A DNA stretch of 49,279 bases from Methylococcaceae bacterium (GTDB lineage Bacteria; Pseudomonadota; Gammaproteobacteria; Methylococcales; Methylomonadaceae), in the NCBI GenBank assembly GCA_007280895.1, contig QYQN01000096.1:1-49279 (forward strand), read 5' to 3'. Made by a program: the position numbers and the translations under genes. The notes beneath the pieces were generated by a model. The model saw nothing but the letters and a program-made list of their open reading frames with translations. It had not been told where the DNA came from and did not search any database. Positions 22,972 to 40,337 of the stretch are shown one piece after another. Numbering within the stretch: the stretch's first letter is position 1; each line of letters begins with the position of its first letter.

Positions 22972-22996
22972 AGGCGCGAATTATTTTTTACTCAGG

Positions 22997-23022
22997 GCAC
23001 ACTGGCTTAATAGTTAGTGTGC
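22997..23022. repeat. Hairpin 1 between outer-membrane factor and adaptor genes
   Basis: Perfect 7-bp arms GCACACT (22997-23003) and AGTGTGC (23016-23022) with a 12-nt loop, 26 bp after the stop of the channel gene. Confidence 0.5.
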
Positions 23023-23066
23023 GTAGGCTTAGAAACACTGCCCAGCGTTAAGAATACCATTGGAGT

Positions 23067-23087
23067 AAAACAGCTTTAGCTGTTTTT
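23067..23087 (+). terminator. Possible attenuator hairpin upstream of the adaptor gene
   Basis: AAAACAGC-TTTA-GCTGTTTT followed by another T forms an 8-bp stem that ends in U's. It resembles a weak intrinsic terminator or, as DNA, an operator. It lies about 40 bp before the adaptor start, so it could lower expression of adaptor and pump relative to the channel. Confidence 0.4.
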
Positions 23088-23128
23088 ACACGCTTTACTA
23101 AAATACGAGATAAACAGGAAATAAATCA

Positions 23129-24244: not shown

Positions 24245-24250
24245 AAAATC

Positions 24251-27200
24251 ATGAATATAACGGATATTTTTATTCGCCGTCCGGTATTGGCTACGGTGTT
24301 AAGTTTAATTTTATTGGTGTTTGGTCTGCGCTCGTTAGTAGGCTTGCCTGTTTTACAATATCCACACACCGAAAATGCCATCGTTACTGTCACCACCGCT
24401 TATTATGGGGCGGATCCTGAAGTGATTGCTGGATTTATTACCACGCCCTTAGAAAATACCATCGCTCAAGCCAATGGTATTGATTACATTACCTCGACTA
24501 GCCAAAATGGCATTAGCACCATTACGGTAAATTTGCGGTTAAATTTCGATGCTAATAAAGCATTAACAGAAATTAACACCAAAATTAATGCCATCCTTAA
24601 TCAATTGCCCCCAGAGGCTCAGCGCCCCTCGATTAGCGTAAAAATTGGTGAAACCATTGATGCAATGTATATCGGTTTTTCTAGTAAAGAATTACCCGCC
24701 AATAATATTACTGATTACCTTATTCGAACGGTGCAACCTAAATTGCAAGCTGTTGCCGGCATTCAGACGGCAGAATTATTGGGCAGTAAATATTTTGCTA
24801 TGCGTGCGTGGTTAGATCCAGAAAAACTGGCTGCGTATGCCTTAACGGCAACAGAAGTCAGTGCAGCCTTAGCAAAAAATGATTTCATTGCAGGTTTAGG
24901 GCGCAGTAAAGGGCAAATGATTCAGGTAAATTTAAAAGCCTCAACAAGCTTGCATTCAGTCACTGAATTTGAAGAATTAATTATTGCACAAAAAAATGGT
25001 GCGCTTATTCGTTTAAAAGATGTCGCCAACGTCACCTTGGGCTCAGATGATTATGAATCAAGCGTGTCTTTTAATGGTGTTAAAGCCGTATATATCGGCT
25101 TACTGATTGCACCTGGAGCAAATTTATTAGACGTTATGGCACGTGTGCGAGCCTTATTTCCAGAGCTTGTTGCACAACTTCCAGAAGGTATGGAAGGTAA
25201 GATTGTTTATGATTCCACAGAATTTGTAGACAGTTCAATTCATGAGGTTATTGATACCTTACTAGAAGCCTTACTCATTGTCTCGTTGGTGGTGTTTTTA
25301 TTTTTAGGTTCATTACGTTCGGTATTAATACCGGTTATTGCAATACCGTTATCATTAATTGGTACGTTTAGCTTGTTATTAATGTTTGGTTTTTCTATCA
25401 ATTTATTAACTTTGCTGGCGTTAGTTTTATCAATTGGTTTAGTGGTCGATGATGCAATTATTATTGTAGAAAATGTTAATCGGCATTTAGAAGATGGCAT
25501 GGAGCCGATACCGGCAGCCATGTTAGCAGCGCGAGAATTAACGGGTCCAATTATCGCCATGACGATAGTGTTATTCGCCGTGTATGTGCCCGTGGGATTT
25601 CAAGGCGGCTTAACAGGTGCGTTGTTTTCTGAGTTTGCCTTTACGGTAGTGGGTGCGGTAACCGTGTCAGCAATTGTGGCGTTAACCTTATCCCCGATGA
25701 TGAGTTCAAAATTACTTAAGTCACATCATCTTGATCAACGTTCAGGTTGGGAAGAGCGTTTTAGTATCTTGATAGACAAGGTATTTGCTTGGTTAATGCA
25801 GCGGTATTTAAAAATATTACATGGTGTGTTGGGGTATCTTCCTGTCACCGCCGTGTTTGCAGCCATCGTTTTAGTGAGTATTTATTTTCTTTACAGCCAA
25901 GCAAACAGCGAATTAGCGCCACAGGAAGATCAAGGTATTATTATTACCAGTTCCAGTTCGGCACCCAATGCTACCTTAAAACAGCGGCAGTTATATTCGC
26001 AACAAGTGTTTGCAAAATTTACCGCGCATCCAGAAACAGATCATGTCTTTCAATTAGATATGCCGGGTCAATCTATTGCTGGAATGGTGTTAACGCCTTG
26101 GGATAAAAGAACAATGACCGCCACAGAATTACAAACTGTGGTGCAGCAACAGTTAAATGACATTGCTGGCGTGCGTGTCGCCGCATTTCAACCCCCACCC
26201 TTGCCTGGCAGTAGTGGATTGCCTATTCAATTTGTGTTGAGCACAACGGAATCTTTTGATCAATTATTTACAATGGCTCAACAATTTAAACAAGACGCAC
26301 AAAAAAGCGGGATGTTTATTTTTGTTGACAGTGATTTGAAATTTGACCAGCCGCAATCAGAAGTGATTATCGATAGAAATAAAGCGGCTTTATTAGGGTT
26401 AACCATGGAGGACGTGGGGGCTTCGTTAGCATCGATGCTAGGCGGTGGTTATGTTAATTATTTTAGTTTGGCTGGGCGCTCGTATAAAGTGATTCCACAA
26501 GTGCAGCAGCGTTATCGATTAAATGCCGAGCAATTACGCGATTACCCAATACGTGCGAGTAATGGCATGTCGGTGCCATTGGCAACCATTGCAGAGATTA
26601 CACAGCAAACGGTGCCGCAATCATTAAATCATTTCCAACAGTTAAATTCAGCGACGATTTCAGGCGTACCTTTTCCTGGCGTAACCTTAGGCGATGCCTT
26701 AGGAACGTTGCAGCAATTAGCTAAGCAAACATTGCCTTCAAGTTATTCTCTTGATTACGGTGGTCAGTCACGGCAATTGGTTAAGGAATCCAGTGGTTTT
26801 GTGATGACGTTTATGTTTGCGCTCATCATCATTTATTTAGCCTTGGCGGCACAATTTGAAAGCTTCAAAGATCCCTTAATTATTCTCGTGTCCGTGCCCA
26901 TGTCGATTGCCGGAGCATTAATTTTTATTGCCTTAGGAATTGGCCATGCCACCTTAAATATTTATACGGAAGTAGGCTTAGTCACCTTAATGGGCTTAAT
27001 TAGTAAGCACGGAATTTTAATTGTTGAATTTGCCAATAATAAACAGAAACAAGGTTTAAGTAAGCGAGAAGCCATTGAAGCCGCAGCAAGTATACGTTTA
27101 CGCCCTATTTTAATGACCACAGCGGCAATGGTGCTAGGGGTGATTCCCTTGATACTGGCAACAGGCGCAGGAGCGGTATCGCGTTTTAATATGGGCTTAG

Positions 27201-27304
27201 TTATCGCAACCGGCATCGCCATTGGCACCTTATTCACTCTTTTCGTGGTGCCTTCCGTGTACCTGATGCTAGGGCAATCATCAAAAAAAGATGAGGTTGA
27301 GTAG
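24251..27304 (+). CDS. RND (HAE1) multidrug efflux transporter
   Basis: Inner-membrane proton-driven drug exporter, 1017 residues with 12 expected membrane segments and two large periplasmic loops. It starts MNITDIFIRRPVLATV, typical of AcrB/MexB relatives. The proton-relay residues are present: Asp400 and Asp401 in TM4 (GLVVDDA) and Lys919 in TM10 (LISKHGI). Last gene of the TetR-channel-adaptor-pump set. Substrates cannot be read from sequence. Confidence 0.93.
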   Translation: MNITDIFIRRPVLATVLSLILLVFGLRSLVGLPVLQYPHTENAIVTVTTAYYGADPEVIAGFITTPLENTIAQANGIDYITSTSQNGISTITVNLRLNFDANKALTEINTKINAILNQLPPEAQRPSISVKIGETIDAMYIGFSSKELPANNITDYLIRTVQPKLQAVAGIQTAELLGSKYFAMRAWLDPEKLAAYALTATEVSAALAKNDFIAGLGRSKGQMIQVNLKASTSLHSVTEFEELIIAQKNGALIRLKDVANVTLGSDDYESSVSFNGVKAVYIGLLIAPGANLLDVMARVRALFPELVAQLPEGMEGKIVYDSTEFVDSSIHEVIDTLLEALLIVSLVVFLFLGSLRSVLIPVIAIPLSLIGTFSLLLMFGFSINLLTLLALVLSIGLVVDDAIIIVENVNRHLEDGMEPIPAAMLAARELTGPIIAMTIVLFAVYVPVGFQGGLTGALFSEFAFTVVGAVTVSAIVALTLSPMMSSKLLKSHHLDQRSGWEERFSILIDKVFAWLMQRYLKILHGVLGYLPVTAVFAAIVLVSIYFLYSQANSELAPQEDQGIIITSSSSAPNATLKQRQLYSQQVFAKFTAHPETDHVFQLDMPGQSIAGMVLTPWDKRTMTATELQTVVQQQLNDIAGVRVAAFQPPPLPGSSGLPIQFVLSTTESFDQLFTMAQQFKQDAQKSGMFIFVDSDLKFDQPQSEVIIDRNKAALLGLTMEDVGASLASMLGGGYVNYFSLAGRSYKVIPQVQQRYRLNAEQLRDYPIRASNGMSVPLATIAEITQQTVPQSLNHFQQLNSATISGVPFPGVTLGDALGTLQQLAKQTLPSSYSLDYGGQSRQLVKESSGFVMTFMFALIIIYLALAAQFESFKDPLIILVSVPMSIAGALIFIALGIGHATLNIYTEVGLVTLMGLISKHGILIVEFANNKQKQGLSKREAIEAAASIRLRPILMTTAAMVLGVIPLILATGAGAVSRFNMGLVIATGIAIGTLFTLFVVPSVYLMLGQSSKKDEVE

Positions 27305-27724: not shown

Positions 27725-29947
27725 TTAATCCAGTTTTTGCAAACTAAGTTTACGGCTTAATTGCGTCATGGCTTCTAAAAATTGACTGCCTTTCATTTTT
27801 TCTTCCGTGTTTTTTGCTTTTAGGGTATCAATATCATCAGTTAATAACTCGCTGGTCGCGGTGTTAATACCAAAGATAAAGTTTAGAGCAAATAAGGATT
27901 CTACAATAATGAATTTATAGGGCAGAACGATAACAGCGGCTCCTGCAATTAAACTCATCGTTACGGATTGTTTGTAGTTGTTATTAAGTAAATGTTTGTA
28001 GGAATGCCCTAAATTAAAAAGAATTTTTAATTGCTTAAGGTCATCATTCATTAAAATGATTTGTGCATTATCACTCGCTACATTGGTAGCAGCTTTAAAC
28101 GAGACCGATACATCTGCGCTGCGAAGCGCAATGGCATCGTTAATACCATCACCAATGAAGCAGACTTTACGACCACCCGACTTAAGTTCTTTAACAATTT
28201 TAGCCTTTTGGTCAGGTAAGGTATTGGCAAAATAGCCATCCATACCCAATTCATTGGCAAGGCGTTGTGTGGGCGCTTCTTGGTCACCTGAGATGATGTA
28301 TAACAACATGCCCGAGGCTTTTAACCAGTTCACCACGTCTTTAGATTCAGGTCGCAAGCAGGCATCTAATTCAATCGCACCCACTAATTCTCCTTCTTCA
28401 GCAAGATAAACAATTGAAATACCCTGCGCGGTGCAACGCTCAATTTCTGGCTGGAAGCGTTCGGGAATGACAATATTTTCCATGCCCATAAAACGGTAGC
28501 TGCCCACTAATACGTTGCGATTATTGATGATAACTTTAATACCGTAACCAATTTCGTATTCAGTATTATGGGTTAGGTGTAAGTTTAAGTTGCGGGCTTT
28601 AGCTTCATTAAGAATGGCTAACGCTATTGGGTGGGTTTGTTTATATTCTGCGGTGGCAGCTAAGCTTAATATTTCATCTTCGCTGCGTTCATCTAGGCTA
28701 TGAATACGCACTAATTCAGGTTGATCTTGCGTTAATGTGCCGGTTTTATCAAACACGATGACATCAATATTATTAAGTGTTTCTAAGGCTCGCCCATCTT
28801 TAATTAAGATGCTGTGATTAGCGCCGGCATTAAGCGCCCCCAATAGGTTAATCATTTTTAAGGGTACGGTGCCAATCACATAGTTACAGCCTAATACCGC
28901 CGCTCCAGTGATTGGTCCGCCAATCATCCAGCCAACTAAGCCGCCACATAGCATGGGCCATAGGGTGTGTTCAACTTCTTCAAGGTTTTTTGCAATATCG
29001 TCTTTGCCGTCATCGATAGTATTTTTTAAAATCTCAAGAATTTGTGCTGCGGCTGTGTCATTGCCACCTTTTTCAACTTTTACGCGTAAGCGTCCTGCTA
29101 ACATTAAACTAGAAGCTAAGACAGTATCGCCAGTTTCTTTCTCAACGGGCTGTGCTTCGCCCGTTAAACGGTGCTGGTCAATTAAGGCAGCCCCTTCGAC
29201 GACGGTGCCATCAACCGGCACTGTTTGTCCGGCATCTAAAATAATGACATCACCAATACGTAGGTCTTCAATAGGAATTTCAACCTCAAGGCCATTATTA
29301 TCAACCCAAACAAATCGAGGCTGTTGATCAAAGATGCTGATTAAATTTTGGCGTGCGCCGATTTGAGTGATTAAGCGTACTTTTTGGAATAAGGCAAAGA
29401 ATAATGAGGCGAGGGTTCCAACGATAAAATGCCCCGTTAGCCACATCCAACTCACATACAGCATGATAGGCACAACAATTTTAATTTTGCGCTCTTCCAC
29501 TAAGGTTCTATAAGCTTGAACGTACCATGGCCATACGCTATATAGGCCAGCCGCAATCACAAAAGGCAAATAGGCTTGACCACTGAAGATCGCAACGGCT
29601 AATAAGCCTGAGGCACCCACACCCAACCCTAAGCGTCGGTTAGTCGCTCTTTCTTGTGGCGTGAGTACGCGCTCGCCGCCGTGCATGAGGCTTTGTAAAT
29701 GCTGTTCACGGGAGTGACCAGCAAGTAAAGGATCAATTTTTTTACTGACAAAGGTTTGAAAGCGATTGTCAGTGTCGTCTAAAAATGACATGAAACGCTG
29801 CCCAATATGAGGTGCTTTAGTTTCAATTTCTGCATTTGGATCAGGTTGTTTGGTAGGAAATAATTCCTGATGCGTAGTTTCTACAGCTTCACGAATAATA
29901 TCGGTGGTTGCAACACCTAGGACAACTAAAAAATTTAATGCAAACAT
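27725..29947 (-). CDS. P1B-like P-type ATPase lacking the CPC metal motif
   Basis: Heavy-metal-type P-type ATPase of 740 residues. The phosphorylation motif DKTGTLT has Asp400, the actuator loop TGEAQPVEK has TGE at 262-264, the P1B-specific His-Pro is H439-P440, and GDGINDAIALR closes the P domain. The membrane helix that normally has CPC/SPC reads GCNYVIGTVPLK (C354-N355-Y356), so the canonical metal site is absent. There is no N-terminal CxxC domain; instead about 100 residues of unknown function and membrane segments precede the catalytic core. The transported ion cannot be assigned. It stands alone, with a structured, possibly transposon-derived sequence upstream. Confidence 0.85.
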   Translation of the reverse strand: MFALNFLVVLGVATTDIIREAVETTHQELFPTKQPDPNAEIETKAPHIGQRFMSFLDDTDNRFQTFVSKKIDPLLAGHSREQHLQSLMHGGERVLTPQERATNRRLGLGVGASGLLAVAIFSGQAYLPFVIAAGLYSVWPWYVQAYRTLVEERKIKIVVPIMLYVSWMWLTGHFIVGTLASLFFALFQKVRLITQIGARQNLISIFDQQPRFVWVDNNGLEVEIPIEDLRIGDVIILDAGQTVPVDGTVVEGAALIDQHRLTGEAQPVEKETGDTVLASSLMLAGRLRVKVEKGGNDTAAAQILEILKNTIDDGKDDIAKNLEEVEHTLWPMLCGGLVGWMIGGPITGAAVLGCNYVIGTVPLKMINLLGALNAGANHSILIKDGRALETLNNIDVIVFDKTGTLTQDQPELVRIHSLDERSEDEILSLAATAEYKQTHPIALAILNEAKARNLNLHLTHNTEYEIGYGIKVIINNRNVLVGSYRFMGMENIVIPERFQPEIERCTAQGISIVYLAEEGELVGAIELDACLRPESKDVVNWLKASGMLLYIISGDQEAPTQRLANELGMDGYFANTLPDQKAKIVKELKSGGRKVCFIGDGINDAIALRSADVSVSFKAATNVASDNAQIILMNDDLKQLKILFNLGHSYKHLLNNNYKQSVTMSLIAGAAVIVLPYKFIIVESLFALNFIFGINTATSELLTDDIDTLKAKNTEEKMKGSQFLEAMTQLSRKLSLQKLD

Positions 29948-30229: not shown

Positions 30230-31072
30230 TTACAACAGGGTTGGTTGGTTGCAAACTGGGCTGAGGTGGCATAATTCAAGCTCTAATTTTAAGGGAATAT
30301 TGATAATTTTGGTATGGTAGGTGCCATCATGTATATTTTCAATAGGATTGGCATACGCCATTTTGTAATCTGTATGAGTCAAGGAGAAGCTGGCGAGTTG
30401 TTGGTGTAATTCATTAACTGCATCGCGCTCTTGCAGTGACATTGAATAATGCCAAATACTGTCATTACCGAACAAAGACTTCATGGCTTCTTCATGATGA
30501 CGGGATTGGCTGTGGTGTGTTAACAGACGTTCTGGACTGATATGGTAAATCATATCGGTTTTATTGGGTAACAATGTGGCATGGGAGCGTGCAATATCAA
30601 AAAACTCTAGCATAAAATTCTGCTCTTCAATTTGCAGCCAAATACACATAATTTCTGTGTAAGCGTTAACCCGATTTTGAAAGTTTTGCGAGGCAGGGAA
30701 GCGTAAATATTTTTGTACTTTGACTGCAAAACCAAGATTTTTATTAAGATGTTCAACCCAATAATCAATGCCTTGTAAAATCAGATCTAGCGGTTCTAAG
30801 ACTTCAAAGCCAATATGATTTAAATGCAAAAATTTAGCCTTAGTTAAGAGGGCTTGAGTAATGCTAGGTGAGGTAGGGAAAAACGTGGTGTTGAGTAGAT
30901 CGGGTAAATTAACGGATTTTAATTCAACTAAGGCATGAAGAATTTTTTCGTAATCACAACACAATACTTTTCTAAATACCCGCTCATCATGGATATGTTT
31001 TACCGCTAAAGCTTGCCGATAAGTCTGCATTAAATCAGCAATGAGTGTAGTGATGCGGGCAATTTCAACCAT
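30230..31072 (-). CDS. Unrecognised 280-residue protein, last gene of NRPS-like operon
   Basis: I do not recognise the family. Two parts each show a pattern loosely like the vicinal-oxygen-chelate (glyoxalase/dioxygenase) fold: LNHIGFEV ... FMLEFFDI (about 84-170) and WHYSMSLQ ... KLELELCHL (about 218-270), with His and Glu/Asp at possible metal positions. No signal peptide or membrane segment. It starts 21 nt after the adenylation gene on the same strand, so it is probably co-transcribed and acts on the pathway intermediate, product or self-resistance. This role is inference from context. Confidence 0.55.
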   Translation of the reverse strand: MVEIARITTLIADLMQTYRQALAVKHIHDERVFRKVLCCDYEKILHALVELKSVNLPDLLNTTFFPTSPSITQALLTKAKFLHLNHIGFEVLEPLDLILQGIDYWVEHLNKNLGFAVKVQKYLRFPASQNFQNRVNAYTEIMCIWLQIEEQNFMLEFFDIARSHATLLPNKTDMIYHISPERLLTHHSQSRHHEEAMKSLFGNDSIWHYSMSLQERDAVNELHQQLASFSLTHTDYKMAYANPIENIHDGTYHTKIINIPLKLELELCHLSPVCNQPTLL

Positions 31073-31093
31073 GATGACGGTAATGAGTTGAGG

Positions 31094-32557
31094 TTAACTG
31101 GACAGGGAAAGCGCGGCTTCCGCTTGTTTTTTTAAGGCTTGTTGATCGGGTTTGCCGCTGGGTAATAACGGTAAGTGATCAACCATAAGGAAGACATCTG
31201 GCACGCCATATTTAGGTAAGATTTTTGTGCTAGCGCTGCGTAGCTCAGCCTCAGTAGGAGCTGTAATGGCCGCTTTAACGCAAAAGGCAACCAGTGTTTG
31301 TCCTTGAATATTTCTGGAGTTAATTGGTACAACCACAGCTTGAGTGACGCTATCAAGTGTTTCTAAGGCTTTTTCAATGTCTGCTAATAAAATTAAAAAG
31401 CCGCTGCGATTAATGCTGTTATCTGCACGCCCTGTGACAATAATTTCACCCAGGTCATTTTTTTTAGCCGCATCGCCAGTACGGTGCCAATCTTGCGCAT
31501 GAAGTAGCCAGTTACCTGCTTCATCCATGTAGCCTTCAAAGCCATACGGATGTTGGCAATACAGGTCTCCCGATTCGTTGTCGCCCGTGTAGTCAATGCG
31601 CAAATTGACATCAGTCATGGGTGTGCCAATTGTGCTGATGCGTGTTGCAAAATCATCATTAGGATCACAGGCGGAAATGGGACCCATTTCAGTGCTGCCG
31701 TATTGATTAACTAAATGGTTACCACATAGGGCATCAAGTGCTGAAAATAAATCTTCACGGATGCGCTGCCCTGACGTGACAATAACTTTGTAAGGTTTAG
31801 GCGTTTTCCAGCCACGTAATAACATTTCACATAAGTTAGGGGTGATGAAGGCGACGGTGGGTGAAAAGCGTCGCTCTCTATCTAAGTATTTCAGTAAATT
31901 ACTATTTTCTTGTAAGTCAATGCAGCAGCCAAGTAAGAGTGCAGGTAAAAATTCAGCGCCAAAACCATACATGTGAAAAATAGGCACAGGAATCGTCATA
32001 CGATCTTCAGACGTAAAATTATATTTTTTAATACAATTAAAGGCACTGCTAAGCACTTTTTCTTGCTTTTGCACAACAATTTTTGCTTCTCCCATACTTC
32101 CCGAGGTGCGCGTAAACAACAAGCCTTCGGTTACGAGGTGCGTTGCACTGCTGGGATTGTCGCGGGCTTCAAGTTGATAAAACGTCTCCACTAACGCGAG
32201 TGTTGGTAATTCACCTGGCATGAGAGGCGGTGTGGCGACTTTAAGACGTACATGACAAAACTGAGGAATTGGTTTTAAGCTTGCGGCGTTATCACTCTTA
32301 TCGGACGGAGGTAAGAGCATGAAGCCAATGCGCTTTGATAGTAGATAAATCAGTAGCAATGCACTCGGCACTGAGTTAGTGCATTCCACTGCAATACAGT
32401 GCTGTGGATAAACATGATGAGCGCTTAGAAACGCGTCAATTTTTTCCAAAAAATGTGGAATTTCGGCATACTGACAGGTGAGTTTTCCATCAGTGATAAA
32501 GTTTTCTTGGGTAGTGGGGGTGTCTGTGACGGCACTGAATAGCGTTGCAAAATTCAT
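31094..32557 (-). CDS. Free-standing acyl/aryl-adenylating enzyme (AMP-binding)
   Basis: ANL-superfamily enzyme of 487 residues. Core motifs: A3 TRTSGSMGEAK (150-159), A5 QYGSTE (285-290), A7 HRTGD (358-362), A8 GRADNSINRSGF (376-387) and the A10 lysine PSGK (Lys469). Around A4 it has PIFHMYGFG (His195) rather than the Asp-containing pocket of amino-acid adenylation domains, which suggests activation of a carboxylic acid (fatty or aromatic) instead of an alpha-amino acid. It has no carrier domain, so it probably loads the free-standing ACP (40032-40337) or the PCP of the A-MT-PCP protein. It starts 23 nt after the condensation gene. Confidence 0.8.
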   Translation of the reverse strand: MNFATLFSAVTDTPTTQENFITDGKLTCQYAEIPHFLEKIDAFLSAHHVYPQHCIAVECTNSVPSALLLIYLLSKRIGFMLLPPSDKSDNAASLKPIPQFCHVRLKVATPPLMPGELPTLALVETFYQLEARDNPSSATHLVTEGLLFTRTSGSMGEAKIVVQKQEKVLSSAFNCIKKYNFTSEDRMTIPVPIFHMYGFGAEFLPALLLGCCIDLQENSNLLKYLDRERRFSPTVAFITPNLCEMLLRGWKTPKPYKVIVTSGQRIREDLFSALDALCGNHLVNQYGSTEMGPISACDPNDDFATRISTIGTPMTDVNLRIDYTGDNESGDLYCQHPYGFEGYMDEAGNWLLHAQDWHRTGDAAKKNDLGEIIVTGRADNSINRSGFLILLADIEKALETLDSVTQAVVVPINSRNIQGQTLVAFCVKAAITAPTEAELRSASTKILPKYGVPDVFLMVDHLPLLPSGKPDQQALKKQAEAALSLSS

Positions 32558-32580
32558 TGTAAGGAGGCTCGTGGCAAAAG

Positions 32581-34128
32581 TTAGGAACGACTAAGTTCAG
32601 TTAAGGCATGGTTAACTGTGTGTGTCGGTGCGTTTACCATCAGGTTTAACAAGGCTTCAAAATCTTGCATGACCGTAGCGCGTTCAGCAGGGCTAAACAG
32701 ATTTTTTTGGGGTAACCAATAGCCTGTTAAGCCTTCATGTGCTTCACCCATTTTTTCCCAGATAGTTAAGTATAAATCTGGACGAGAATATGGATTTGCC
32801 ACATGTTCCATAAAGTTTACCTGACAATTAGGTAACGTGAGTTCATTATGTGCAGTTTCGGCAAGGAAGCTTAAAATGGAATGAAATAACGGCGCTAGTT
32901 GTGTGCGTTCAGGTTGTACAAAGGGCATCACCACCCGATACGGAATATCTTGGTGTGTCATGGCATGAGCCACTTCATCGCGGATGTGTTGCAGTAAGTT
33001 TTCCCAGGTGGGATCGTCATGTAAGCTAATACGTAAACTTAATACGCTTAGCATTGAGCCAATGATGCTTTCAAATTGCCAGCGACCACGGTTGGCAAAC
33101 GTGGTGCCAATAATTACATCAGGACAGGCGGTGTATCGATACAGTAATGCAGAATATGCGGCGAGTAAGGTCATGTACAAGGTCACGCCACAACTTTGTG
33201 CCAATAACTTTAAGTTGTGCATTAACTGTTCATCAAAATGTTGCCATAATATCTCGGCTTCAAAATCTTGTGCGCGGTGTTCCTGATGTGTTTGCCATGT
33301 CCAGGGTTGCGGTTCGCCACGTGTAAACCATGATTGCCAATAAGCGCTGCGTTGCTGCATGGGGGTAGTGAGCAAGGCTTGTTGGTCTATCGCATAATCA
33401 CCATATTGCAAAGGAAGCGCAGGCAAGGAGACTGTTTTGCCGGCGAGGTTGGCGGCATAATGCACGCTGATTTCAGCAAGCAAAGCGTTTAATGAGCGTT
33501 GATCGTAAATCAGAATATGTAAACACAGCAGTAACACCTGCTCGGTGTCGGTTAACTGTATGACGCGTACCCGTAAACATGATGAGACGGATAAATCAAA
33601 GGGCACTTCAAATTCTGCGGCGATATGCTTTTTTAAAGCATCTTCACGTTGTTCTTGAGGGATTGCTCGCAAATCATAAACTTGCCAATCTGCTGGCGTA
33701 TTAGGTGAGGCCATTTGCTGCATGACACCGTCAATTTCTTTTAAGGTGGTGCGTAAGATTTCATGACGCTTGACGATTAAATTCATGCTTTGTTGTAACG
33801 CGTCAAGTGCAACTTCCCCTGAAATTTTGAATGCAAAAGGCACGGTATAAAAGCAGTCACGAGGATTTAATTGTTGTAACGTCCAAAAATGCTGTTGGGT
33901 AAATGAAAGAGGATAATAGTGCGTTTCATTTTGCGCTGCATAGTCGATATTTTGTAAGTGCGTAATAATGTCCGCTTTATGCAGAGTTAATTGCTCACGT
34001 AGCGATTCGGTTAATGCTCCTTGCGGTGCATCAAAACGTAACCGCTCACCCTCCAGTCGTAAGCGTATGTCTGCGGCGTTTAGTTGTTGAAATACGTCAG
34101 CCAAATGTGGCGGTACTGTGGTTCCCAT
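32581..34128 (-). CDS. TubC-docked condensation-domain protein with degenerate catalytic motif
   Basis: 515 residues. Residues about 8-58 match a TubC N-terminal docking domain (LADVFQQLNAADIRLRLEG ... LREQLTLHKADIITHL), which holds NRPS subunits together. A full condensation domain follows: C1 SFTQQHFWTLQQL (75-87), C4 YGDYAID and C5 IIGTTFANRGRWQFESIIG. The HHxxxDG motif reads H204-I205-L206-I207-Y208-D209-Q210; the second, catalytic His is Ile and the Gly is Gln. It may therefore not condense by the usual mechanism, or may only bind its substrate. It starts 2 nt after the A-MT-PCP gene. Confidence 0.85.
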   Translation of the reverse strand: MGTTVPPHLADVFQQLNAADIRLRLEGERLRFDAPQGALTESLREQLTLHKADIITHLQNIDYAAQNETHYYPLSFTQQHFWTLQQLNPRDCFYTVPFAFKISGEVALDALQQSMNLIVKRHEILRTTLKEIDGVMQQMASPNTPADWQVYDLRAIPQEQREDALKKHIAAEFEVPFDLSVSSCLRVRVIQLTDTEQVLLLCLHILIYDQRSLNALLAEISVHYAANLAGKTVSLPALPLQYGDYAIDQQALLTTPMQQRSAYWQSWFTRGEPQPWTWQTHQEHRAQDFEAEILWQHFDEQLMHNLKLLAQSCGVTLYMTLLAAYSALLYRYTACPDVIIGTTFANRGRWQFESIIGSMLSVLSLRISLHDDPTWENLLQHIRDEVAHAMTHQDIPYRVVMPFVQPERTQLAPLFHSILSFLAETAHNELTLPNCQVNFMEHVANPYSRPDLYLTIWEKMGEAHEGLTGYWLPQKNLFSPAERATVMQDFEALLNLMVNAPTHTVNHALTELSRS

Positions 34129-34130
34129 GA

Positions 34131-37100
34131 TTAAATTTCACCTTCTTCGCGGCTGACTTCAGTGACAGGTGTTTTACCATGCGTTGCTAAGTCGGGGTAT
34201 AAAGCCAATAAATACACGGCAAAGCTGGACACCGTTGGGGCAATAAAGATACTCATTGGGGGAATATGATCGCCAAATAGCCGTTGTAATCGGTTTGCCA
34301 CAGTCATGACTTTTAAAGAATTTCCACCTAAAGCAAAGAAATTATCTTCGACACCTATTTGTGGTAAATCAAGCACATCTGCCCATACTTCGGCTAACAG
34401 TTTTTCAAAGGGATTGTGTGCAGCCACCATCGCTTCTTCACGAATAAACTCAAATTCAACCGGTAATTCTGCCAAGGCTTTACGATCAATTTTTCCTGAA
34501 GGAGAAAGTGGCATTTCTTCTACGCGAGTAAAAATAGCGGGCACCATGTATTCAGGTAAGCTTAATTGCAGTACGTTGCGCAATTGTTTCATTAATTGAC
34601 GAGTCAATTTAATGTGTTGTGGATTATTAACATGCTGCGTTAAGTGTAATACTGGAATTTCAGAAACAAAATCAATGGCGTGCGCCGGCATGTCTTGACG
34701 TGTAAATACGGCATCAAAGGCACCATGTTCAGCACTGGATAGCCAGCTTACTTCAAGCTGATAGCCATTGTTATTTGCCAATTCAGTCAGGTCTTGTAGT
34801 TCAATGCCTGTGTAGGGATGTTCGGCAAGATACTGTCGAACAGTGTTGATGGTCATGTCTGCAGGAGCAGTGCGTAAATAATCCATTGCCCGTGTGACGG
34901 CATGTAAGCGCGCATTAGGAATCGCACGAAGCGCCAAATAGTCAGGGGTGTGGTTAGTTAATTGTTGTTGAATACTTGTTAAGGAATAATCATTCGTTGT
35001 CCAGTCTTGCCAAGGTAAGTCGCTCAGGTGAGCTTGTTCTGTATGCAAATGAAGGACGACATCAAAACGGAATAAGGTCAATTGATTATGTGCACGACCT
35101 GGTTTAGGAATAATTTGTACCTGCGCAATTTCTGGAAATAGCGTTTTTAAAGCTAAGAAAAAGGCGGGTGTAAATTGCAAATCTTTTTCAGCATCCATTT
35201 TCTGTTTAATCCCTTGCCAGACATCACTGCACGTGTCAGTGTCGTTAGCGCGGAACAATTGTACTGAGCTATGGAAAGCTTCGCGTTGTAATAAGCTGGG
35301 CACGTCACCTAAGAAAATACGGCTATTGGTTTTCATTAAGCGCAGTGCATTGCGTAACACTAATAATAAATATTCAGCATCAGGGAAATGCTGGATAACT
35401 GAGTTGATGATAATGGTGTCGATAGAGTTATCAGCAAAATCATCTAATTTATCTGCGGCGCGTTCGTAAAGAGTAATGTTGGCTAAGTCATTACGTTGAG
35501 ATTGCAAAATACGAATATTATCTAAGCCTGTGGCGGAAATATCGGCGCCGGTGTAGTGTGCACAATGTGGGGCAATACGAGAAAGTAATAAGCCCGTGCC
35601 ACAGCCTAATTCTAAAACGTGTTGGGGTTGTAAGCTGAGGATTCTTGCAACGGTAAGCTCTACCCATTCACGCATTTCATTTTCTGGAATAGGTAAATCG
35701 GTGTAGCTGCTATTCCAGCCACTGATATTAAAGCTTAAATCGCCGTCTGCGCCAATTTCGGCAGCGGTTTGTTTGTAAGTTTCTTCGTAAAGATTTTGCC
35801 ATAGCGCAACGTATTTATGTGCATCTTCATCAGTTTCTACAGCGTTTAAATCGGCAGTAAAATAAGCGACTAATTGTTTGTCTTCACGTTTATCTTGGTG
35901 AACAAGTACTACGGCTTGTTTAATGGCGGGATGTTGAGTTAAGGCAACTTCAATTTCTCCCAGCTCAATACGGAAGCCATGGACTTTAACTTGGTGATCA
36001 ATACGCCCTAAAAATTCAATATTGCCATCTGGAAGGTAGCGTGTTAAATCACCCGTGCGGTATACGCGACCTGCTGCAAAAGGATTGGCAACAAATTTTT
36101 CTGCCGTGAGTTCTGGGCGGTTGTGGTAGCCACGACCTACCTGCACACCACCAATTAATAATTCACCTGGTGTGCCAATGGGAGTTGGCTGGTTGTTTTC
36201 ATCAACAATATAAAGTGAAGTATTGGCTACAGGGCGACCAATAGGCACAATGCCTAAGGTGCTGTCTGAGTGACAAGCCCAGTGGCTGACATCAATGGCG
36301 GCTTCAGTTGGACCATATAAGTTGTGTAGTTGCGCAGTGCTTTGCGCAAAAAAGTTTTTTTGTAATTCATAAGATAAGGCTTCACCGCTACAAATTACTC
36401 TACGAATAGAATGACATTCTGCTAAATCAGAAACATCTAATAGCACATGCAACATGGGCGGGACAAAATGCAGAGTAGTGATGTGTTTGGTTTGAATTAA
36501 GAAAATTAAATAATCAGGATCTTTGTGCCCCTCTGGTTTGGCGACAACTAAACGGGCACCTGTCATTAATGGCCAAAAGAACTCCCAAACTGATACGTCA
36601 AAACTAAAAGGTGTTTTTTGTAAGAGGGCATCACTGGCATCAAGTTTAAAGGTTTCTTGCATCCATAATAAACGGTTACATATCCCGCGATGTTCATTAA
36701 GTGCACCTTTGGGTTTGCCGGTAGAGCCAGAGGTATAAATCATGTAGGCTAAATTATCTGCATTGACCGATGATTCAGGCGTGGTGCTGGCTGATTGCGC
36801 AATCGTGGCCCAATCACGGTCAAGAAAAATGCGTTCTGCCGTGCTGGCAGGTAGTTGTTCTGCTAAATGTTGTTGGGTGAGTAATACCGTTGGCGCAGCA
36901 TCCGCCATCATGAAGCTTAAGCGATCGCTAGGGTAAGTTGGATCTAAGGGGACATAGGCGCCGCCAGCTTTTAAAATGCCCAATAAGCCAATAACCATTT
37001 CCAGTGAGCGTTCAACACAGATGCCCACTAAGGTATCTGGTTTAACTCCTTTGGCTTGTAAGAAATGTCCTAGTTGATTGGCACGTGTGTTTAGTTCACG

Positions 37101-37283
37101 GTAAGTTAATGCTTCATCAATAAATTCGACTGCAATGGCGTCAGGAGTGCGTTCAACTTGTGCTTCAATCCAGTGGTGTAAGCATTTATCAAGTGGATAA
37201 TCAGTCTGGGTATTATTCCATTCGATGAGTAACTGGTGACGTTCTGCTGCTGAGATAGGGGGTGAGAGTTCAATGTTAGTCAT
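34131..37283 (-). CDS. NRPS module A-MT-PCP, predicted serine specificity
   Basis: 1050-residue non-ribosomal peptide synthetase. The adenylation domain (about 20-460) has A3 YTSGSTGKPKG (183-193); pocket residues aligned to GrsA are D229 V230 W233 H272 I297 S299 L322 I330 D331 K931, close to the known serine code. A SAM-dependent methyltransferase (motif LELGCGTG, 557-564; domain about 490-740) is inserted between A8 and the A10 lysine, the position of N-methyltransferases. The carrier domain has LGGNSL with Ser989. There is no condensation domain at the start and no thioesterase at the end; those functions sit in neighbouring genes. The product would be N-methyl-seryl-PCP. Confidence 0.9.
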   Translation of the reverse strand: MTNIELSPPISAAERHQLLIEWNNTQTDYPLDKCLHHWIEAQVERTPDAIAVEFIDEALTYRELNTRANQLGHFLQAKGVKPDTLVGICVERSLEMVIGLLGILKAGGAYVPLDPTYPSDRLSFMMADAAPTVLLTQQHLAEQLPASTAERIFLDRDWATIAQSASTTPESSVNADNLAYMIYTSGSTGKPKGALNEHRGICNRLLWMQETFKLDASDALLQKTPFSFDVSVWEFFWPLMTGARLVVAKPEGHKDPDYLIFLIQTKHITTLHFVPPMLHVLLDVSDLAECHSIRRVICSGEALSYELQKNFFAQSTAQLHNLYGPTEAAIDVSHWACHSDSTLGIVPIGRPVANTSLYIVDENNQPTPIGTPGELLIGGVQVGRGYHNRPELTAEKFVANPFAAGRVYRTGDLTRYLPDGNIEFLGRIDHQVKVHGFRIELGEIEVALTQHPAIKQAVVLVHQDKREDKQLVAYFTADLNAVETDEDAHKYVALWQNLYEETYKQTAAEIGADGDLSFNISGWNSSYTDLPIPENEMREWVELTVARILSLQPQHVLELGCGTGLLLSRIAPHCAHYTGADISATGLDNIRILQSQRNDLANITLYERAADKLDDFADNSIDTIIINSVIQHFPDAEYLLLVLRNALRLMKTNSRIFLGDVPSLLQREAFHSSVQLFRANDTDTCSDVWQGIKQKMDAEKDLQFTPAFFLALKTLFPEIAQVQIIPKPGRAHNQLTLFRFDVVLHLHTEQAHLSDLPWQDWTTNDYSLTSIQQQLTNHTPDYLALRAIPNARLHAVTRAMDYLRTAPADMTINTVRQYLAEHPYTGIELQDLTELANNNGYQLEVSWLSSAEHGAFDAVFTRQDMPAHAIDFVSEIPVLHLTQHVNNPQHIKLTRQLMKQLRNVLQLSLPEYMVPAIFTRVEEMPLSPSGKIDRKALAELPVEFEFIREEAMVAAHNPFEKLLAEVWADVLDLPQIGVEDNFFALGGNSLKVMTVANRLQRLFGDHIPPMSIFIAPTVSSFAVYLLALYPDLATHGKTPVTEVSREEGEI

Positions 37284-37320
37284 GAGTGCACGAGAAGTTG
37301 TCAGTAAATTAAAGAGAATG

Positions 37321-37956
37321 TTAGTTTATGGTGTAAACCCATACTTGAAGATTAACTTCTGGATGAGCTTGAAAACGGCCATGAAAAGGCTCAGTCACAT
37401 GATGTAAAGTCCATTTACCTTCAGTTTCTAAACGTAGCATGGTTGGTTTAAAATCAGTATTGGCATAAAATTCAGGGCGAAGGGTGAACAGAATATGACC
37501 ACCTGGCTTGGTAATTCGAATTAATTCGTCAAAGGCATTGCTGCGCGCATGAGCCATCACAAAAACACCAACAATAATAATGGCATCAAAATGGTGATCT
37601 GGAAAATCAAGCGGCCCACCTAAAGCTTGTTGATGAAACGCGCTATAACAATTTTTATTACGCGCTTGTTGTAGCATTCCTGTTGATAAGTCTAATGCTT
37701 CAAGGTGTTGGTAGCCTTGGCTTGCCAAGTGTTGACCCACTAAGCCTGTGCCACAGCCAGCGTCTAATATGCGGCCTTCTTTAGAGGTTAATAAAGCTAA
37801 TTGCTCAGCAGCTTCTTTAGGGCCTGCATGACCTTCTAAATCATTATCGTAAGAGGTTGACCATTTGTCATATTCTTTGGCAAGCTCTTCAGGCGTTGTA
37901 GCTAAGAAAACAGTTTCAACACAGTTTGTCATTTTTGTAGAATCCTTATCTATCAT
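37321..37956 (-). CDS. Class I SAM-dependent methyltransferase of NRPS-like operon
   Basis: 211 residues with the SAM motif I LDAGCGTGLVG near 69-79 and a class I fold; the order of blocks resembles the METTL27/UbiE-type group. The acceptor is unknown, perhaps an oxygen or nitrogen of the peptide product. The ATG at 37956 overlaps the sulfotransferase stop by 4 nt; a second ATG at 37932 (MTNCVETVF) has a better ribosome site (AAGGA), so the mature start is uncertain. It is followed by the A-MT-PCP gene. Confidence 0.8.
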   Translation of the reverse strand: MIDKDSTKMTNCVETVFLATTPEELAKEYDKWSTSYDNDLEGHAGPKEAAEQLALLTSKEGRILDAGCGTGLVGQHLASQGYQHLEALDLSTGMLQQARNKNCYSAFHQQALGGPLDFPDHHFDAIIIVGVFVMAHARSNAFDELIRITKPGGHILFTLRPEFYANTDFKPTMLRLETEGKWTLHHVTEPFHGRFQAHPEVNLQVWVYTIN

Positions 37957-38633
37957 GAGTTAACGGGGGTTATTAGGCCGTTGAAATCATAACCAAACAA
38001 GTTAATGTCTTTGACATAATGTTCAGCAATCATTTCGCGCGTGCGGTCGGTGTAATAGTCGCGATAATCTTTATGCTGACTTTTATTTAAGTGAGGGAGT
38101 TGTTCATTAACACCAATTTTTTGGCAAACATAAGCGACGTCTTCGGCAAGATTTTCATAGTGGCCTAGAAAATCCATGAGCAAATTGCCGTCTTTATCGA
38201 CAATCATTTCATGTTGAAATTTGGTTGTGCCTTTTGGAAAACGAAAATCAGTCGACACTACAGCTTCAATGTAAGCATCAAAAGAGCCAAAGCTTTTGAC
38301 TAAATTATGAGGCGTGGATTCGGGCTCTTTTAAAATAAAGTGGTACATTGAGACTTGCCAGTCCCAAGGATTTCTAACAAAAGCAAATTTAAAGCAATTG
38401 TTAAACGTATCGTTAGGCAATTCTTTTAATGCGTCTTGTGCTGTGGCGTGCAGTAATAAACTGCGCCAAACATCGTGAAATTTATTATGTACACCGTCGA
38501 TTTCTTTAGCAGGTTTGGCAATTTTAAATTTTTCTGGTTCTTCAGAATATTTTTCTAAAATATTGCGAACGCTCAAGCCGCCTGTTTTTGCGATATGGAT
38601 AAAAATAAATTGATGACTATTAGACAATAGCAT
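37953..38633 (-). CDS. PAPS-dependent sulfotransferase
   Basis: 226 residues. The 5'-phosphosulfate loop HIAKTGG (13-19) and the 3'-phosphate block FVRNPWDWQVSMYHF with Arg87 and Ser95 identify a sulfotransferase of the family that transfers sulfate from PAPS to hydroxyl or amine groups. There is no signal peptide, so it acts in the cytoplasm. In this operon the likely acceptor is the hydroxyl of the serine side chain or of the alcohol left by reductive release; that is inference. It is coupled to the methyltransferase by a 4-nt overlap. Confidence 0.8.
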   Translation of the reverse strand: MLLSNSHQFIFIHIAKTGGLSVRNILEKYSEEPEKFKIAKPAKEIDGVHNKFHDVWRSLLLHATAQDALKELPNDTFNNCFKFAFVRNPWDWQVSMYHFILKEPESTPHNLVKSFGSFDAYIEAVVSTDFRFPKGTTKFQHEMIVDKDGNLLMDFLGHYENLAEDVAYVCQKIGVNEQLPHLNKSQHKDYRDYYTDRTREMIAEHYVKDINLFGYDFNGLITPVNS

Positions 38634-38712
38634 GGTTTTACCAAAGGTTTAGGTGTTAAAAATTAGGTGCGTAGACGTGCGCGTTGTTGATAGTGTGCAG
38701 TCAGTTATGTGC

Positions 38713-39945
38713 TTAGGGCTTAGGGCAAAAGCCCGTTTTTTGCCAATAGTGGATATAACGTGAGATGAGTTCGTTATCAATTTTATGGCAACTAATGTCG
38801 GTTCCAGCAATGCCTTCGGCAATATTTTTGGAATCAAAATGGGGGCGTTTATAAAATAAGTAGTGGGGGACTTTTAATGCCAAGAGCAAGCGGGAATAAA
38901 ACTCTCTATCTTCTAAGTGTGATTCTTCAGGGCTATCAATGGCTTTTTTTAATTCTGCTAACCATTGTTCATAAGTAATTTCTTTCAAATCATAACCTTG
39001 AGCGTTTACTAGAGCGATTAAGTCTAGCCAACGGATAGGGTACGGATTGAAGTAATGAAAGGCTTTGCCAAAGTTAGCAGGAGACGCAGCTAAATGCACC
39101 ATGGTGCTGCTAATGTAATCCACGGGAACCATGGTGACTTCGATATCCCAGGTTGGGTAGCAGCCAAGTTTAATACAGCCTTTTAGTAATTGTGGGAGTA
39201 GTTCGCTGTTGTCGTTTAAGGCTCCAGTTATGCTATGCCCCATGATGCGTGTTGGGCGATGAATTGTTGCGGGCAAGCCACGTTCTTGTGCGGCAGCAAC
39301 TAAGCGATCGCCCACCCATTTACTTTTGCCGTAGCCACCTTTGAGACTGGCATGGAATGCGGGTACGTCGGCTTCCGTTAAAATTTGGTTTTCTGTGTTA
39401 TCAGCACTATTAAAAAAAACTGCAATACTGGAAACAAAATGCAAAGGTTTAGTTTGGTTTAAGCCAGCAAAGCGAATCGCTTCTTTTACGCCCAAAACAT
39501 TGGCAGGTTTAAGTCTTGAATAAGGATAAAGCATGTTTATCCATCCTGCGCTGTAATAAACAACATCAATTTCTGCGGCTAATTCATTATAAATGTGTTC
39601 ATCTAAACCAAAAAAGGGTTCTGTTAAATCACCAATTACAGGTAGAATCCTGTCGAAATATTCTTCATTGTATAGGCCGTATGAAGTTAAATGATTAATT
39701 AATCTTTGTTGAGCAAACTCCTCATCAATCGCCCTAACTAAGCAATAAATATTTGCAGAGCTTGTTCTAAGTAACTCATCAAGAATGTAAACGCCTAGTA
39801 ATCCAGTCGCGCCCGTTAAAAAAACAGCCTTAGGGGCTAAGTAATGTTGAGATAATGGCGCCAAAAATTGTATGTCATCTTCTAAGATGGCGTCATGTTC
39901 GATATGCGCCTCTTGATGGGTAGAAAGATTTATCGATGAGGGCAT
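38713..39945 (-). CDS. Free-standing thioester reductase (NRPS R-domain type)
   Basis: Short-chain-dehydrogenase-like reductase, 410 residues. NAD(P) motif GATGLLG (45-51) lies near the N-terminus, followed by FVSSIAVF with the catalytic Ser and GGYGKSKW with the Tyr-x-x-x-Lys pair. This is the thioester reductase fold that releases carrier-bound peptides as aldehydes or alcohols. It is normally the C-terminal domain of an NRPS; here it is a separate protein, fitting the absence of a thioesterase in the operon. The A-MT-PCP and condensation genes follow downstream. Confidence 0.87.
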   Translation of the reverse strand: MPSSINLSTHQEAHIEHDAILEDDIQFLAPLSQHYLAPKAVFLTGATGLLGVYILDELLRTSSANIYCLVRAIDEEFAQQRLINHLTSYGLYNEEYFDRILPVIGDLTEPFFGLDEHIYNELAAEIDVVYYSAGWINMLYPYSRLKPANVLGVKEAIRFAGLNQTKPLHFVSSIAVFFNSADNTENQILTEADVPAFHASLKGGYGKSKWVGDRLVAAAQERGLPATIHRPTRIMGHSITGALNDNSELLPQLLKGCIKLGCYPTWDIEVTMVPVDYISSTMVHLAASPANFGKAFHYFNPYPIRWLDLIALVNAQGYDLKEITYEQWLAELKKAIDSPEESHLEDREFYSRLLLALKVPHYLFYKRPHFDSKNIAEGIAGTDISCHKIDNELISRYIHYWQKTGFCPKP

Positions 39946-40031
39946 GTGCAGTATCCAATCAGGTCAAATTAATTCTGTGGCTAAGTAATTTATCTGTAAT
40001 ATCGATAAAATAAAAAAGTGAACGTACTACC

Positions 40032-40337
40032 TTAAGCTGTGGCCAGATTCTTTTTTACTAAGAAATCAGCAAGCGTTCTTAAATTAGTAAATACATCCAT
40101 GGTTAAATCATTTTCGCCAAAGGTAAGGTTAAAGTTATCTTCTAATAATGAAATAAATTCCACCAGCATAATAGAATCTAAGCCTAATTCGCCTTCTAAA
40201 ATAGAAGCGTTTTCATTTATTTCATGTTGTACAAGTTCAGTATTGATGCGTTCAACCAGCATGTTTTTTAGGGTGTTAATCATTTGGACGATAACGTCTT
40301 CTGGTTGGGTAGCGTTATCTGCAACGGTCTCTAGCAT
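40032..40337 (-). CDS. Free-standing acyl/peptidyl carrier protein
   Basis: 101 residues; the phosphopantetheine site is GLDSIMLVEF with Ser55. The sequence is acidic and helical, typical for a carrier. It is the first gene of the minus-strand NRPS-like operon, 86 nt before the reductase. It is likely the carrier loaded by the free adenylating enzyme and read by the condensation protein or reductase. The operon encodes no phosphopantetheinyl transferase, so a chromosomal one would be needed. Confidence 0.88.
   Translation of the reverse strand: MLETVADNATQPEDVIVQMINTLKNMLVERINTELVQHEINENASILEGELGLDSIMLVEFISLLEDNFNLTFGENDLTMDVFTNLRTLADFLVKKNLATA

Follow-up and report, generated by a model that had tools for sequence, protein, structure and literature searches.

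A dissociated NRPS-like locus with a free reductase, a sulfotransferase and a predicted docking pair in a Methylococcaceae bacterium

Eight minus-strand genes of a Methylococcaceae bacterium, a methane oxidizer from a lake, at positions 30230–40337 of the 49,279-nucleotide stretch of DNA analysed here (the window), may encode a dissociated, reductively releasing NRPS pathway made up of two co-inherited units. We hold this reading tentatively, with rather less than even confidence. It draws on the protein families at the locus, on the retention of all eight genes in four related genomes, and on a predicted docking pair that links a serine-loading carrier to an unusual condensation-fold protein. 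If correct, it describes a minimal NRPS line, found in nature and dissociated almost completely, and since every partner would be a separate small protein, carrier handling, docking and reductive release could each be tested piecewise.

Gene set and conservation

The initial annotation had described a compact run with short gaps or overlaps, and this is confirmed. Each ORF begins with ATG, and the gaps between the ACP, reductase, sulfotransferase, methyltransferase, A-NMT-PCP, condensation-fold (C), ligase and VOC genes, in order of transcription, are 86, 79, −4, 37, 2, 23 and 21 bp. Scans for promoter-like (27 vs 34.3 expected) and terminator-like sites (14 vs 13.6 expected) performed no better than on shuffled sequences. 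Pfam and NCBIfam searches matched PP-binding; TIGR01746; Sulfotransfer_2; methyltransferase; AMP-binding, methyltransferase and PP-binding; TubC_N and Condensation; and AMP-binding, so that the NRPS families AMP-binding, carrier and Condensation are all present above the Pfam cut-offs. No thioesterase family was detected in the eight proteins at E ≤ 0.001, in agreement with the earlier claim. Families and motifs likewise support the dissociated set proposed there, namely a Ser-type A domain with an inserted methyltransferase, a free ACP, a free reductase and a sulfotransferase.

All features described below lie on the minus strand. The free ACP (40032–40337, 101 aa, PF00550) was found in 4/4 orthologous loci, has its LDSIM serine at residue 55 and carries no docking tail. 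Its gene adjoins, in 4/4 loci, that of the stand-alone thioester reductase (38713–39945, 410 aa), which scores 306.9 bits against TIGR01746 (cut-off 213.35), has Rossmann and YxxxK motifs (TGATGLLG and YGKSK) and finds its best PDB relative in the MxaA reductase, 4u7w. The A-NMT-PCP protein (34131–37283, 1050 aa) has a methyltransferase inserted in its A domain, as judged from Pfam and from 5wmm, which matches residues 41–940 in one stretch. Its pocket, D-V-W-H-I-S-L-I-D, aligns with D-V-W-H-F-S-L-V-D of E. coli EntF, whose pocket positions we take as the Ser code, and the alignment supports a Ser-type specificity. The free acyl-adenylating enzyme (31094–32557, 487 aa, PF00501/PF13193) shows PIFHMYG where an amino-acid A domain would have its A4 motif, and its nearest PDB chain is a 4-coumarate-CoA ligase. 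Judged by these features it is a ligase of acyl/aryl type; as it lacks the amino-acid A4 aspartate, its acid would have no obvious alpha-amine acceptor.

The sulfotransferase (37953–38633, 226 aa, PF03567) contains AKTGGLS and RNPWDW, presumably the PAPS-binding motifs of such enzymes. From this enzyme we infer, like the earlier proposal, a sulfated product, probably derived from N-methyl-serine; it is also possible that the sulfate serves as a leaving group. Should a sulfated compound of this sort exist, it would add a new kind of metabolite to those of lake methanotrophs. Around relatives that are not orthologues (about 40%), the neighboring genes encode glycosyltransferases in three of the eight loci fetched (L041, L044, L048); at L047 the neighbour of the relative gave no family match. 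Sulfotransferase phylogeny was rejected as a guide to the substrate, since these relatives among glycosyltransferases do not identify the acceptor. The gene overlaps that of a stand-alone class I SAM methyltransferase (37321–37956, 211 aa, PF13649/PF08241). An APS kinase and one ACPS-family match are present in the genome itself.

The same four of the 20 genomes of the genus (Methylococcaceae MAGs) carry orthologues of the VOC protein, sulfotransferase, C protein and reductase, the four that were tested, and all eight genes are present in those four. They divide into an ACP-R-ST-MT-A(Ser)NMT-PCP-C unit and a ligase-VOC unit, which are collinear in two of the four genomes and rearranged in the other two. 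G000 and G003 alone have the eight in a single run. In G011 the pair of ligase and VOC genes runs divergently from ACP-R-ST-MT-A, and in G004 it occupies another contig, where an RTX gene lies upstream of the ligase gene. Identity to the window genes across the four species is 62–97%, and omega against G004, the nearest relative, is 0.025–0.137, indicating purifying selection. Retention in four species and low omega values argue that the gene set is more than a chance assembly.

The VOC protein and a neighboring P-type ATPase

The last gene of the run (30230–31072, 280 aa) had been left as an unknown protein, and no Pfam family matched it, nor did a PDB sequence search with its profile return anything. 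Its structure model (pLDDT 81) contains two babbb units, the paired arrangement of the vicinal-oxygen-chelate (VOC) superfamily, and both Foldseek (best E 6.6e-05) and VIA (top Z 8.7, a modest value) returned VOC proteins. With four candidate metal ligands (H86, E156, H208 and E264/E266) retained in 6/6 sequences, the modeled protein is a candidate metalloenzyme of VOC fold. Matches were found in 5 of 101 relatives, 2 of 369 genomes of the class and 1 of 398 of the phylum, the own genome being counted each time. A search of genome contigs gave three loci, apparently those of G004, G011 and G003, and viral contigs and plasmids gave no matches.

The initial annotation had also reported that there was no transporter. 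This has to be revised, as a conserved P-type ATPase gene (27725–29947) follows the VOC gene in 4/4 orthologous loci, at a distance of 282 bp in the window and 46 bp in G003, and makes the ATPase a transporter candidate and a candidate ninth member of the set. The protein scores 378.5 against TIGR01525 (cut-off 346.25) as a P1B type and keeps the phosphorylation motif DKTGTLT, with GCNYVIG (residues 353–359, 28871–28891) in the place of CPC; no CPC or CPx motif is present. The ATPases of 20 more distant control loci have CPC in 18 cases and DYSC in 2. NRPS-linked ATPases were counted at 7/20 other loci of the family and 0/20 controls (Fisher p 0.004), with one threshold for both sets, controls chosen from lower-ranked matches, and loci that are not independent (L077–L079 form one close group, and L061–L063 come from one genome). 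The control locus L094 gave a methyltransferase match only. If CPC-less ATPases do export natural products, a class of transporter has been overlooked beside NRPS clusters.

Other readings of this neighborhood were considered. On the G004 contig that was read, the RND efflux genes at 21418–27304 had no match next to the VOC unit, and they are therefore not counted as part of the set. A metallophore is possible, although unsupported with an ATPase that lacks CPC. Because of the ATPase, the isonitrile-lipopeptide type was considered as well, whose clusters place a ligase, an ACP and an NRPS-reductase beside a P-type ATPase. Its ordinary form was rejected: no isonitrile-forming oxygenase or thioesterase family occurs among the nine genes, and the literature search was empty.

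Docking, the condensation-fold protein and the order of assembly

The C protein (32581–34128, 515 aa) had been annotated as TubC-condensation, and both families, TubC_N and Condensation, are indeed matched. Its model (pLDDT 82.8) superimposes on Txo2 with Z 40.0 and rmsd 2.6 over 426 residues, and the condensation fold is kept. The second part of the label, an ordinary condensation enzyme, fares less well. Instead of HHxxxDG the C3 motif reads HILIYDQ (residues 204–210, 33499–33519), and the second His is absent in 4/4 orthologues, which argues against ordinary amide formation; the C3 aspartate is retained. The HH pair is kept in EntF and in 16/16 other Methylococcales C domains from the fetched loci. 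In the same four orthologues the C5 motif FVNT is changed to MLSV or SLSV, and omega for the C protein is 0.065 against G004. Should this protein prove to be active, or a platform, it would bear on the need for the C3 histidine.

Its N-terminus (residues 1–62, 33943–34128) is a TubC-type beta-hairpin docking domain, with PF18563 at residues 14–59 and predicted elements H7–18, E22–26, E29–33, H41–49 and H51–66, the abbaa order that the accessible text of PMC9113145 describes for such domains. The A-NMT-PCP protein just upstream ends in REEGEI (34134–34151), a charged-hydrophobic tail identical in 4/4 orthologues and predicted to be a short linear docking motif (SLiM); in these four loci the C start codon lies 3 bp past the A-NMT-PCP stop or overlaps it. 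Acidic tails precede TubC-type proteins in other Methylococcales NRPS systems too (EEMEEGYL, TDYEEIEL, VEYEDIAL and IELEDIEL, 4/4 seen). Contact between a SLiM-bearing PCP and a beta-hairpin-C protein is an established interaction of a carrier with its downstream domain, for example in the enacyloxin pair Bamb_5917/5915, as far as the available parts of PMC9113145 and PMC13324335 go. From the position of the tail directly before the beta-hairpin domain we predict docking of the serine carrier onto C, where it would probably be the donor; the Condensation family has a single match in the genome, so no other NRPS there can explain the docking.

We therefore prefer a serine-donor model. Serine would be activated and N-methylated on the PCP of the A-NMT-PCP protein, and the REEGEI tail would dock this PCP onto the C protein, the downstream partner handling the N-methyl-Ser thioester on its donor side. 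The C protein may then pass N-methyl-Ser to, or position it for, a unit loaded on the free ACP by the ligase; C, ligase, ACP and reductase would in this way do the work of a second NRPS module, divided among four proteins. The reductase would release an aldehyde or alcohol, to be tailored by the sulfotransferase and the free methyltransferase, while the VOC protein might prepare or finish the acid part and the ATPase move the product or a bound ion. Against the model, the docking pair could be an inherited relic that has fallen out of use, and in G004 and G011 the ligase-VOC unit stands apart from the run of the other genes. The lost second His of C, the ligase without the A4 aspartate and the acyl-first arrangement of a distant relative in G216 count against it as well.

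The main question then is whether the acid comes first, as the initial annotation had proposed. The ligase would load an acid on the ACP, the C protein would work in trans to join it to N-methyl-Ser-PCP, with the docking pair keeping it at its acceptor and the loss of the second His being tolerated, the reductase would release the product off the PCP and the sulfotransferase would sulfate a hydroxyl. We regard this order as a real possibility, yet on balance doubtful. It is favored by the acyl/aryl type of the ligase, by the retained C3 aspartate and by genome G216, from another gammaproteobacterial family, where a VOC gene stands beside a ligase-ACP-KS-AT-DH-ACP-C protein followed by A-NMT-PCP-R, an acyl-first arrangement. 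However, the condensation domain in G216 is not the same domain: it aligns at 23% identity and has an intact HHIVADA, and the A domain there lacks the Ser pocket. The direction of docking and the ACP without a docking tail also speak against this order.

Could the C protein form no bond at all? It might be a docking platform, or modify an aminoacyl thioester as glycopeptide X or dehydrating C domains do, bringing reductase, sulfotransferase or methyltransferase to N-methyl-Ser-PCP, with sulfation turning the serine hydroxyl into a group that can leave in an elimination or a ring closure. Leaving-group sulfation is known from curacin biosynthesis. The lost C3 histidine and altered C5 in 4/4 orthologues, within a fold kept under purifying selection, fit such a role. 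So do beta-hairpin/SLiM pairs ahead of many non-C domains (PMC9113145, in part) and serine dehydration by downstream C domains, proposed for solanimycin in the accessible portion of PMC10204066. We nevertheless consider it unlikely: the X domain and AmbE-CmodAA are just two among many C-fold matches of close Z, so the fold does not discriminate. A bolder joint claim would turn the His-less protein into a hub on which one serine-loading carrier docks, the sulfotransferase into an activator of the serine hydroxyl instead of a decorator of the product, and CPC-less P-type ATPases into an unrecognised exporter class for small NRPS products in methanotrophs; that all of this holds together seems decidedly unlikely. 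That ACP-R-ST-MT-A-C and ligase-VOC-ATPase are two unrelated systems adjacent by accident is very improbable: the units are separable in G011 and G004, and in G084 a VOC gene lies near a ligase with no A-NMT-PCP in the 20 kb read, but both units recur in the same 4/20 genus genomes and G216 again has VOC beside ligase, C and A-NMT-PCP-R.

Comparison with known systems

The initial annotation recognised no described pathway with this gene set, and none was found in the open-licence literature either, which is weak evidence. Several systems share parts of it. The X domain of teicoplanin (4tx2) has the C fold (427 residues, Z 37.7); X domains serve as platforms for recruitment, and their active-site motif is altered. 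By Z it cannot be told apart from active C domains (top match Z 40.0), and the nine genes include no P450. In 5wmm, which we take to be TioS, a methyltransferase sits within the A domain, and McyA has a Ser-NMT module of this construction, whereas here the A-NMT-PCP protein stands alone with no C domain in cis. The G216 cluster likewise brings VOC, acyl ligase, C, A-NMT-PCP and reductase together; it differs in that its domains are merged into two polypeptides and KS-AT-DH and an SDR are present as well, and it gave no sulfotransferase match on its 18-kb contig.

A survey of secondary metabolites in methane-oxidizing bacteria mentions NRPS-like clusters, without detail in its available text (PMC11964084). 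Aeruginosin aer clusters, in the accessible parts of PMC10744761 and PMC10143770, combine sulfotransferase tailoring (AerL) with reductive release of NRPS products, and the TubC-type domain of AerJ (8aqq) is a PDB relative. They are, by description and not gene by gene, large multimodular tetrapeptide synthetases with Choi genes, none of which occur among the nine annotated genes. The fragin/valdiazen ham cluster resembles the locus in pairing a small NRPS, which includes a reductase domain, with a separate condensation-domain protein, HamF (PMC11659414, in part). It differs in having the N-oxygenase HamC, the cupin HamB and the aminotransferase HamG, of which Pfam matched none in the eight genes; the HamC family was absent from the ATPase as well. 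The enacyloxin chain-release pair, Bamb_5917 (PCP-SLiM) and Bamb_5915 (beta-hairpin-C), shares the C-terminal carrier motif and the free beta-hairpin-C protein (PMC9113145, PMC13324335, each in part), and its structure 6cgo aligns over C-protein residues 12–274, docking domain included. In the window, by comparison, the carrier sits in a Ser-activating A-NMT-PCP protein and its predicted partner is a C protein without the second His of HHxxxDG.

A conserved, dissociated NRPS gene set

The eight minus-strand ORFs at 30230-40337 (ACP, thioester reductase R, sulfotransferase ST, methyltransferase MT, A-NMT-PCP, free condensation-fold protein C, acyl-adenylating ligase and VOC protein) carry the domains named in the initial annotation, as ORF and family annotation confirmed. 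Their intergenic gaps, in transcription order, are 86, 79, -4, 37, 2, 23 and 21 bp. Together they form a dissociated NRPS set that is real and conserved; its carrier is of the Ser-NMT type, its C protein is His-less and its release is predicted to be reductive. The assembly comprises 2.86 Mb in 160 contigs (99.9% complete), one of which is the window in its entirety, and a family search of the whole genome returned a single Condensation match, namely C of the set. Elsewhere on the contig, BREX-type defence genes (BrxHI helicase, PglZ and BrxA, by PADLOC) occupy its start at 241-5656 (plus strand), and an 802-aa LonB-like protease is encoded at 45862-48270 (minus strand).

All eight genes occur in the source genome G000 and in G003, G004 and G011, with identities to the window of 62-97%; the A-NMT-PCP of G011 is seen in two pieces because the set there is spread over two contigs. 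Among 20 genomes of the genus, some of those lacking orthologues being incomplete (76-99%), the orthologues of VOC, ST, C and R are confined to these four. Weaker homologues (E <= 0.001) occur elsewhere, in 26 of 101 genomes for ST, 45 of 101 for C and 8 of 20 for R, counts that include the four. Among named records, the closest ones that carry the VOC gene come from MAGs of uncultured Methylococcaceae. Omega for the eight genes and the adjoining ATPase gene is 0.025-0.137 (0.065 for C) in the comparison with G004; dS to the remaining two genomes is mostly saturated.

The earlier view of the set as one operon agrees with G000 and G003, where all eight genes run collinearly (with 112 bp between C and ligase in G003), but not with the other two genomes. 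The ligase-VOC pair of G011 is transcribed divergently from ACP-R-ST-MT-A, and a beta-lactamase-fold gene comes after C there; in G004, ligase, VOC and ATPase share a contig on which an RTX gene lies upstream of ligase, and ACP to C lie on a different contig. The eight genes thus fall into two units, of which ligase-VOC is separable in these two genomes, and the single operon is one of the arrangements taken by a set that the four genomes inherit together.

The adjoining ATPase and its relatives

The gene next to VOC in all four loci (27725-29947, minus strand, in the window) encodes a P1B-type ATPase by family score, with GCNYVIG where the CPC motif is expected. The general ATPase family is present in 101 of 101 genomes, so its presence alone is uninformative and the CPC-less branch is the informative one. 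NRPS domains were found near 7 of 20 CPC-less loci of other Methylococcales versus 0 of 20 control loci with more distant ATPases, with one threshold for both sets and a stretch read per locus, many CPC-less contigs being short; the p value of 0.004 counts as separate loci that are not independent. Three G087 proteins, all on contigs with NRPS domains, branch as sister to the cluster ATPase in the tree. Neighbours of CPC-less ATPases include NRPS proteins ending in a reductase (L061, L069 and L078) or a thioesterase (L062), and a PKS-thioesterase protein (L063).

At L069, in genome G070, the reductase-terminated protein is a two-module TubC-type NRPS (L069:11079-18749) situated 12 bp ahead of the ATPase (L069:8964-11066). 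A second cluster type sharing the ligase-ACP-ATPase set is seen in genomes G010 (L079:10881-15923) and G034 (L077:9283-14881), where genes for a CPC-less ATPase, an FAD-dependent oxidoreductase, an acyl ligase and a free ACP follow one another next to NRPS sequence. RTX repeat genes adjoin both the ligase-VOC-ATPase unit of G004 (L007:8958-10478) and the CPC-less ATPase of G034 (L077:5592-8939), which may be coincidence. In the window, a tripartite efflux set (outer-membrane factor, HlyD-type and AcrB-type genes; 21418-27304, plus strand) is convergent with the ATPase gene; no match to these genes was found beside the VOC unit of G004.

Sulfotransferase and VOC protein

A sulfation step is a probable part of the pathway. 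ST bears both motifs that we take to be PAPS-binding, and the genome encodes an APS kinase. Relatives of ST at about 40% identity sit among glycosyltransferases, and its acceptor is therefore not readable from homology.

The 280-aa VOC protein has no Pfam match at E 5 in three of the four members and one chance-level match in the fourth. Its predicted structure (pLDDT 81) contains two babbb units; Foldseek matched it to methylmalonyl-CoA epimerase, hydroxymandelate synthase and HPPD, and VIA to BphC and methylmalonyl-CoA epimerase with Z scores of 8.0-8.7, modest on VIA's own scale. The candidate metal ligands H86, E156, H208 and E264/E266 are retained in six of six VOC proteins. By its model, the protein has a VOC fold and is a candidate metalloenzyme.

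The probable donor to the condensation protein

The A-domain code of A-NMT-PCP is D-V-W-H-I-S-L-I-D, as compared with D-V-W-H-F-S-L-V-D in EntF, and at what we assume to be the Ser-code pocket positions it is, by alignment, Ser-type. The methyltransferase sits within the A domain, and 5wmm, presumably an interrupted A domain with N-methylation, aligns to residues 41-940 as one stretch. Similarly interrupted A domains also carry out O-methylation. By analogy, the arrangement fits N-methylation, with O-methylation a possibility.

The predicted model of C (pLDDT 82.8) adopts the condensation fold, aligning to Txo2 over 426 residues with Z 40.0 and rmsd 2.6, and carries an abbaa docking domain at its N-terminus. 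Its C3 motif is HILIYDQ in all four orthologues: the Asp is retained and the second His is absent. HH is present at C3 in all 16 remaining Methylococcales C domains of the fetched loci that passed the coverage filter, one of which (L033) reads HHIVSDG. In C domains, the active-site histidine is this second His (PMC10212144).

In all four genomes REEGEI forms the C-terminus of A-NMT-PCP, and the C gene either begins 3 bp beyond the A-NMT-PCP gene or overlaps with it. Domains of the beta-hairpin type bind short motifs at the C-terminus of carrier proteins, making contact with about five of the terminal residues (PMC9113145, PMC13324335). On the strength of this tail, the beta-hairpin domain of C and such known binding, A-NMT-PCP is predicted to dock onto C, which makes N-methyl-Ser the likely donor; the N-methyl-Ser on A-NMT-PCP would be the donor side, passed via docking to C. 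We favour this reading, tentatively when it is taken as a whole.

A close rival, which we regard as only slightly less likely, is the acyl-first order of the initial annotation, where the acid is on the carrier before being joined to N-methyl-Ser. It draws on G216, a genome from another family of the class, in which a VOC relative (41% identity) lies beside fused proteins and the acyl group comes first; the C domain there, however, is only distantly related (23%) with HH intact, and the A domain is without the Ser pocket. In G084, another VOC relative (35%) is found near an acyl ligase. The G216 cluster (L107:5063-18056), composed of the VOC gene, a 2342-aa ligase-ACP-KS-AT-DH-ACP-C protein, an SDR and a 1424-aa A-NMT-PCP-R protein, is apparently a separate hybrid pathway that shares the VOC family.
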